A DNA stretch of 64,000 bases from Methanoplanus limicola DSM 2279. Its GTDB lineage: Archaea > Halobacteriota > Methanomicrobia > Methanomicrobiales > Methanomicrobiaceae. Location of the stretch: contig NZ_CM001436.1 of NCBI RefSeq assembly GCF_000243255.1, positions 692 through 64,691 on the forward strand, in the 5' to 3' direction. A program made the position numbers and the translations under genes. Shown here one piece after another: positions 38,109 to 64,000 of this stretch. Position 1 is the first letter of the stretch. Each line of letters begins with the position of its first letter. Below the pieces are notes generated by a model. The model saw nothing but the letters and a program-made list of their open reading frames with translations. It did not search any database and was not told the DNA's origin.

Positions 38109-38300
38109 TCAGTAGCGCCCGATGCTGTCGAGTTCTTCACGCACAACAATCCGGACGGCTTCTATATCAAAACCGCCCTTCTTATCCTTCTCTTTTAAGA
38201 GTTTCTCCATGGTTCTGATACCTTCGCTGATGCTGTTGCCATATCTGAGTGCAGTCTCAAGTGCATCCAGCTGCACCCTTACAACCTTTGAGTCGGCCAT
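38109..38300 (-). CDS. Small helical conserved-looking protein
   Basis: A 63-residue protein with no Cys and no membrane segment, predicted to be mostly helix: VRVQLDALETALRYGNSISEGIRTMEKLL, then a KEKDKKGG turn and DIEAVRIVVREELDSIGRY. The first lines resemble a ribbon-helix-helix start (VVRVQLDALETAL), but it is too short to be sure. It lies 14 bp ahead of the metallophosphoesterase gene on the same strand, so the two are probably cotranscribed. I do not recognise a family. Confidence 0.6.
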   Translation of the reverse strand: MADSKVVRVQLDALETALRYGNSISEGIRTMEKLLKEKDKKGGFDIEAVRIVVREELDSIGRY

Positions 38301-38395
38301 GATTAATATTTTAAAACAATTGCAGATAAATGTTACATAATGCTACACCTGGACCATCTCCGCAAAAAAAGCAAAAAAATGAGAGAAAAACAGAT
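38301..38395. other. Leader region of small helical gene; T-tracts
   Basis: No gene. On the minus strand this stretch holds several oligo-T tracts (for example at 38366-38372 and 38374-38380) that follow the candidate RNA at 38396-38645. They would stop its transcription before the protein gene at 38300. Confidence 0.45.
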
Positions 38396-38645
38396 AAAAA
38401 GAGAGGTTTCCTGTAAGTTCTGTCTTCAGACAGGGTAAACAGGAGATCTATGAAAGAGTTTTGAGGTATCTGACATCTCGATGTGGAGGTTACATTTATG
38501 CAGTAAAAAGATGCCCCTCTTCTGTGTTAGGAGCACAGTATGGACATTCTTCTACTTTGCCGGAGATCACAGCAGTGCAGAGAGTTTATCCTTAGATGTC
38601 AGATAAGGAACACTGAATTCTGCCCTGCTCACTCACGACAATTAT
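38396..38645 (-). ncRNA. Candidate structured small RNA with its own promoter and terminator
   Basis: An intergenic unit on the minus strand. A TATA box TTTATATC (38663-38670) predicts a start near 38640. A perfect 12-bp inverted repeat, TATCTGACATCT (38467-38478) with AGATGTCAGATA (38594-38605), closes a 115-nt domain that contains a CTGTG/CACAG hairpin (38522-38538). Near the 3' end a nested stem, CTGTC-TTCA-GACAG (38420-38433) inside CCTGT/ACAGG (38411-38415 and 38438-38442 by eye), is followed on the minus strand by repeated T-tracts. It matches no RNA I know (not SRP, RNase P or tRNA). It also contains a 24-codon frame with CPYC. Confidence 0.5.
38496..38570 (-). CDS. Possible CxxC microprotein (very uncertain)
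   Basis: A 24-codon frame starting at GTG and ending at TAA, encoding VEECPYCAPNTEEGHLFTA as its C-terminal part. The CPYC pair is typical of small zinc proteins, but such proteins normally have two pairs and only one is here. No clear ribosome binding site is seen. It lies inside the candidate structured RNA, so it may be a chance frame or the coding part of a dual-function RNA. Confidence 0.15.
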   Translation of the reverse strand: MISGKVEECPYCAPNTEEGHLFTA

Positions 38646-38662: not shown

Positions 38663-38702
38663 GATATAAATTCATGCCGCGTGGGGTGAAAGTAAAAACT
38701 CT
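38663..38702 (-). promoter_or_regulatory. Promoter of candidate RNA: 20-nt element shared with uvrA, plus TATA box
   Basis: On the minus strand AGAGTTTTTACTTTCACCCC (38683-38702) is identical to 54698-54717 upstream of uvrA. It is followed 12 bp later by TTTATATC (38663-38670). The element stands upstream of the TATA box, the usual place for an archaeal activator site. No other copy was found in the window by eye. Confidence 0.65.
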
Positions 38703-54697: not shown

Positions 54698-54743
54698 AGA
54701 GTTTTTACTTTCACCCCGCATGCCTGAATCCTCATTTATAATA
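54698..54743 (+). promoter_or_regulatory. uvrA promoter: 20-nt upstream element and TATA box
   Basis: AGAGTTTTTACTTTCACCCC (54698-54717) is followed by TTTATAATA (54735-54743), which lies 28 bp ahead of the ATG at 54772, so the message has a very short leader. The identical 20-nt element precedes the TATA box of the candidate RNA at 38.6 kb. It is probably a regulatory site, perhaps for DNA damage control. Confidence 0.7.
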
Positions 54744-54771
54744 AGATCCAAAACTCTTCTGATACAGGGAA

Positions 54772-63543: not shown

Positions 63544-63729
63544 CCCACTATCTTAGGACAGTCAGATATATAACAGAAACGGCTGAGGAAAAACGCTGAA
63601 AAAAAAAGAAAATAATAATCACTCATTACGCATTTTAGAGATTAAGGACAAATTAAGAAGAATATATGGCGCAGAACTGTAAATCACCACAAATCCACGT
63701 CAGAAAAAATGATAAATGAATAAATAAAT
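63544..63729. other. Promoter region of FKBP gene, no gene seen
   Basis: AT-rich DNA with no supported coding region; TATA-like sequences for the minus-strand FKBP gene lie close to its start codon. It leads into the tandem array. Confidence 0.4.
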
Positions 63730-63730
63730 A

Positions 63731-63940
63731 TAATTTAAATATAACTCAAACATAATTTAAATATAACTCAAACATAATTTAAATATAACTCAAACATAAT
63801 TTAAATATAACTCAAACATAATTTAAATATAACTCAAACATAATTTAAATATAACTCAAACATAATTTAAATATAACTCAAACATAATTTAAATATAACT
63901 CAAACATAATTTAAATATAACTCAAACATAATTTAAATAT
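63731..63940. repeat. 22-bp tandem repeat array, nine copies
   Basis: Nine exact copies of TAACTCAAACATAATTTAAATA run from 63742 to 63939, preceded by a partial copy (TAATTTAAATA, 63731-63741) and followed by the diverging TAATTTAATTATAATTATC. Each unit has the palindromic core ATTTAAAT, so the cores recur about every two helical turns. There are no spacers, so it is not CRISPR. Function unknown: a protein-binding iteron, a curved or easily melted site, or slippage. Confidence 0.9.
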
Positions 63941-64000
63941 AATTTAATTATAATTATCTCTCAACTGAAGCAAGTGTAATCTCAAAAGTCAGATTTTTGC

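Follow-up and report, generated by a model that had tools for sequence, protein, structure and literature searches.

A directional promoter element upstream of radA, rpa and uvrA in Methanomicrobiales as the probable operator of an archaeal DNA-damage regulon

A 20-nt element occurs twice in the window, the whole stretch of 64,000 nucleotides from Methanoplanus limicola analyzed in the present study, once upstream of uvrA and once upstream of a promoter at 38.7 kb, and it is also present upstream of radA in essentially all of the 56 Methanomicrobiales genomes examined. Based on its sequence, placement and conservation, the element is very probably the operator of a DNA-damage and recombination regulon. 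The box, TTYACTTTCRCNCYRCGCRSG with the core ACTTTC, is non-palindromic and lies immediately before BRE/TATA; a sequence-specific factor bound to it would, from this fixed distance, control the recruitment of TBP and TFB, most likely as an activator upon DNA damage or stalled replication. The core targets in Methanomicrobiales would be radA and rpa, to which uvrA and a structured RNA would have been added in this lineage, and the regulator itself may be an Orc1-2 type paralogue of Orc1/Cdc6 that controls its own gene through an inverted copy of the box.

Regarding the window, the sequence-only reading had reported two exact copies of AGAGTTTTTACTTTCACCCC, one on each strand, 17 nt (uvrA) and 12 nt (38.7 kb) from a TATA box. 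Both were recovered at the same places and on the same strands with 0 mismatches, and the distances were the same when the coordinates were re-read (Table 1). At up to 3 mismatches, AGAGTTTTTACTTTCACCCC matched nowhere else in the window, and the next best site of the 64 kb after these two copies scored 8.1 bits with a position matrix trained on radA promoters. Elsewhere in the window, two near-identical tRNA genes are arranged in tandem on the minus strand (2453-2663), and a tandem array of approximately 21 units of an 11-bp repeat occupies its end (63660-64000).

Table 1. Positions of the element copies and associated features in the 64-kb window.
Feature	Position	Strand	Remarks
Element copy 1, upstream of uvrA	54698-54717	+	Exact AGAGTTTTTACTTTCACCCC; 25.8 bits with the radA-trained matrix, top + strand site in the window
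Core ACTTTC of copy 1 (uvrA)	54707-54712	+	
TATA box TTTATAATAA of uvrA	54735-54744	+	Read from the sequence; 22 nt after ACTTTC
uvrA, excinuclease ABC subunit A, 977 aa	54772-57705	+	NCBIfam NF001503/TIGR00630 above cut-off; Pfam UvrA domains
Element copy 2, 38.7-kb promoter	38683-38702	-	Exact AGAGTTTTTACTTTCACCCC; 29.7 bits with the radA-trained matrix, top - strand site in the window
Core ACTTTC of copy 2	38688-38693	-	
TATA box TTTATAT of the 38.7-kb promoter	38664-38670	-	Read from the sequence; 17 nt after ACTTTC; kept in the sister genome G001
Predicted RNA, ~256 nt	38387-38642	-	Starts ~26 nt after the TATA box; probably non-coding
63-aa ORF (MADSKVVRVQL...)	38109-38300	-	Downstream of the predicted RNA; near-identical in G001

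In the 3.2-Mb genome (one contig), AGAGTTTTTACTTTCACCCC was found three times exactly, once with 1 mismatch and once with 2 mismatches, and the reversed control gave 0 matches; the third exact copy is located directly upstream of rpa, which encodes a 420-aa OB-fold protein. The relaxed core YACTTTCRCNCYNC matched 11 sites versus 2 for the reversed pattern. Ten of the 11 possess the same promoter anatomy, in which the box, usually with a GC-rich RCGCRSG behind it, is followed by TATA at a distance of 17-22 nt; the eleventh (3,115,561) has no TATA context and is probably a chance match. Since 100 dinucleotide shuffles contained no match to the 20-mer and the reversed pattern was far rarer genome-wide, chance was rejected as an explanation for the pair, as the sequence-only reading had anticipated, and the whole-genome search that it had called for yielded about ten promoter-placed copies, so that the element is neither common nor randomly placed. 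The genes behind the sites are uvrA, rpa, radA (767 kb) and those for a 138-aa protein of an unnamed family, a member of a 60-aa protein family and a 94-aa protein, and four sites (39, 299, 579 and 2328 kb) precede a long leader or RNA before any clear ORF.

A profile of these sites found matches in all 60 genomes of the order that were searched. In the radA upstream regions, the 18-mer consensus was present with no more than 4 mismatches at a near-constant distance in 50 of 56 genomes, versus 0 of 112 controls (reversed and reverse-complemented patterns, which never fell below 5 mismatches). Every position of ACTTTC was conserved in 55 or 56 of the 56 radA sites, many of which contain TTCACTTTCA. 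The matrix, for which radA promoters alone had served as the training set, was then tested on 30 rpa promoters held out from training. In 29 of them the score exceeded the 99% shuffled null, with the site mostly approximately 70-90 nt before the start; the thirtieth locus, which is cut off by the end of its contig, has a variant copy at 72 nt, so that all 30 rpa loci carry the element upstream. The site is directional and non-palindromic, and TATA followed ACTTTC after a gap of 17-20 nt in 37 of the 48 radA promoters and 16 of the 19 rpa promoters that were scored. Among the 30 uvrA loci read, a copy was found in genera g1, g2, g3 and g8 and in part of g11, and was absent elsewhere; the uvrA copy is therefore specific to certain lineages and supplements the radA/rpa core, which is conserved. 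This comparison of related genomes and the listing of their downstream genes, in which repair and recombination genes were enriched, bear on the earlier proposal of a common regulator for excision repair and an uncharacterized transcript: the rarity of the element, its placement in promoters, its orientation toward the start and its conservation over the order at radA and rpa give good support to such a regulator, although uvrA is not a core member of the regulon.

An element of this kind was previously described in haloarchaea. The UV-B-induced Halobacterium genes radA1, top6B, vng17 and vng280 carry TTTCACTTTCA approximately 50 nt before the start and upstream of TATA, and npa, also UV-B-induced, carries the variant TTTTACTTTCA (Boubriak et al., 2008; PMC2556686). 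The same study detected TTTCACTTTCA at radA of other haloarchaea and of Methanospirillum hungatei, proposed a regulator without identifying the factor, and found that the rpa-type gene rfa3 was weakly raised, and at high doses or short-wave UV only (PMC2556686). The behavior of rfa3 counts against the regulon proposed here. No later identification of this regulator was found in the literature searched, which included few subscription papers. Both window copies contain TTTTACTTTCA exactly, and the motif was already reported at radA in 2008; therefore, the kind of element is already known. The core, the position upstream of TATA and the occurrence at radA are shared, and the element at uvrA, with its haloarchaeal-type 11-mer approximately 59-69 nt before the ATG and upstream of TATA, fits the distance of approximately 50-70 nt from the start codon in haloarchaea. 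Unlike the haloarchaeal motif, the present element has an extended right half, CYCYRCGCRSG, is conserved order-wide, and is predicted to act also on RNA leaders and on rpa, uvrA and Orc1 paralogues. New in the present analysis are how far the regulon extends, the longer consensus, the predicted uvrA, rpa and ncRNA targets and the candidate regulator.

On a wider scale, the pattern TTYACTTTCACYCYGCGC occurred in 38 of 393 genomes of the phylum, and its reversed match in none. A longer pattern searched against 84,980 species gave 27 loci, comprising 20 in Methanomicrobiales, 6 in haloarchaea and 1 on a contig labelled Bacteroidetes. The element is located 53-57 nt before the rpa start in 14 of 25 genomes of one haloarchaeal family, and was not seen in the few other haloarchaeal families sampled. 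Viral contigs gave 14 matches, most of which had no TATA in the right place and several of which represented one repeated coding context; one viral locus (L382) had a TATA-like sequence.

In Sulfolobales, UV-inducible promoters need an ANTTTC hexamer upstream of BRE/TATA (PMC5817253), which is bound by Sulfolobus Orc1-2, including at its own promoter (PMC9738581). This DNA damage response element (DDRE) resembles the present box, the ACTTTC of which fits ANTTTC, in being non-palindromic, directional and upstream of BRE/TATA, and perhaps also in the presence, here in part of the genomes, of the element in the promoter of an Orc1/Cdc6 gene. However, the site described here is longer and stands approximately 10 bp, or about one helical turn, further from TATA: the Sulfolobus hexamer lies at -39 to -44 from the TSS, whereas ACTTTC would fall outside that position at approximately -48 to -53, as estimated from the TATA gap. 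The predicted targets radA, rpa and uvrA have also not been reported as such for Sulfolobus.

Considering these similarities, one of the Orc1/Cdc6 paralogues, that of the Orc1-2 type, is the best candidate for the regulator, and the genomic evidence for it is suggestive. A full-length homologue of this protein, assigned to the ORC1-type by NCBIfam, is clear in nearly all of the 60 genomes, and in approximately 10 of 30 its promoter contains an inverted element at a constant 63-65 nt before the start, beside TATA, which points to autoregulation; the element in direct orientation also precedes at least 12 Orc1/Cdc6 paralogue loci. One Orc1-2 type protein (L251:520-1659) has the Walker B motif LICLDDAN, with Asp for the usual Glu, and the paralogues are similar. 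We consider the chances evenly balanced that the regulator is instead an unrelated factor shared with haloarchaea, with the Orc1-2 type gene being a mere target, a question of the identity of the factor and not of the regulon. The absence of an element directly upstream of the Orc1-2 type gene in M. limicola and its sister of the same genus, the spacing unlike that of Sulfolobus, and the conserved unnamed proteins among the targets argue for an unrelated factor, against which stand the precedent of Sulfolobus Orc1-2 and the apparent autoregulation of the Orc1-2 type gene in many genomes. The Orc1-1 gene of M. limicola has no element.

Other readings of the box itself appear improbable. Its position always just upstream of BRE/TATA at a fixed spacing is what a general core-promoter element of many unrelated genes, such as an extended BRE or an upstream activating sequence, would show; however, only approximately ten promoters per 3.2-Mb genome possess it, and recombination and repair genes are, across genera, strongly overrepresented among them, which makes such a role very unlikely. 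We attach equally little credence to an origin-recognition-like Orc1/Cdc6 site serving replication rather than transcription, which the G-rich reverse strand (GGGGTGAAAGT) and the Orc1 paralogues among the linked genes might suggest, because the copies are single, lack a dyad, and are directional at a fixed distance from the TATA of repair genes. A dispersed mobile repeat, despite some related sites preceding an ArdC-type gene cluster or a TnpB gene, was rejected as next to impossible, since the flanks outside the box are unrelated and orthologous genes throughout the order have kept the site.

Regarding the putative transcript at 38.7 kb, it is probably a structured non-coding RNA of approximately 256 nt that is separate from the 63-aa ORF. 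From the expected start (approximately 38642) to the T-runs near 38390, M. limicola and its sister genome G001 share conserved blocks with 80% identity, and the lengths of the indels are not divisible by 3. The fold of 38301-38645 had a z of -2.5, and the predicted RNA contains a long-range helix of 12 bp (38594-38606 with 38467-38478) and a hairpin (38410-38442) followed by T-runs (38383-38401). The helix and hairpin are retained in G001 with 43 pairs unchanged and 3 altered; since the alterations affect only one side of a pair, they provide no compensatory support for the structure. A 21-codon GTG frame at the 5' end is conserved in length and may be coding. A search of the window with Rfam returned two tRNAs alone and no known family at 38.4-38.6 kb. 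The 63-aa ORF, which had no match in Pfam or NCBIfam, may have its own promoter. At 2328 kb (G000:C1:2328043; also in G001), the element is followed by an almost perfectly conserved non-coding stretch of approximately 80 nt, and this stretch or leader is likely a second RNA of the regulon.

The other genes behind the element, each taken as the first good ORF and mostly named from family matches of N-terminal parts, include an unnamed 135-aa family, Orc1/Cdc6 paralogues, DNA methyltransferases, a XerA-type recombinase, the helix-hairpin-helix protein Cdd1, and a radical-SAM protein that matches TIGR03916 (putative DNA modification/repair). Single loci comprise an Mre11-like nuclease, an HNH endonuclease, a DinG/XPD-like helicase and TnpB, the latter two names being read from the sequence only. 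The Orc1/Cdc6 paralogues, the radical-SAM gene and the Mre11-like and DinG/XPD-like loci were seen in lineages other than those with the uvrA copy. The unnamed family of approximately 135 aa is the commonest gene behind the element in several genera (L004:1579-1995; G000:C1 at approximately 1.217 Mb). It consists of two similar strand-strand-helix units in a good AlphaFold model (pLDDT 81), with no usable Pfam or NCBIfam match and no convincing fold relative in the PDB, and a search of genome contigs with one member found nothing. In Methanoregula and relatives (L343, L346, L350, L367), a diverged member and the element lie beside an ArdC-like gene on what seems to be a mobile element using the damage box of its host. 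A family of 57-61 aa, MS(Q/D/E)TF...RAK, follows the element in several genera (G000:C1:844065; L056, L288, L297) and is possibly a damage-induced microprotein. In Halorubrum (L344, L345, L347, L366), the element precedes a conserved protein of approximately 60 aa ending in ...EVHLERRGGRTFLVT.

It is tempting to speculate that the DNA-damage responses of Methanomicrobiales, Sulfolobales and some haloarchaea go back to a single ancestral system, with a protein of the Orc1/Cdc6 type, derived from the replication initiator, serving as the transcription factor on the ACTTTC box and, in methanogens, having as its targets recombination and excision-repair genes together with a damage-regulated structured RNA; we advance this proposal tentatively, as somewhat less probable than its contrary. 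To our knowledge, archaea have no LexA-based SOS system. The target functions resemble those of bacterial LexA/SOS (recombinase, single-strand-binding protein and uvrA) by analogy of function only, and the LexA/SOS operator is palindromic whereas the present box is not. A probable order-wide operator at radA and rpa, together with uvrA and a probable RNA gene, provides a defined list of targets and a concrete candidate regulator, by which damage signaling in euryarchaea would become directly testable.
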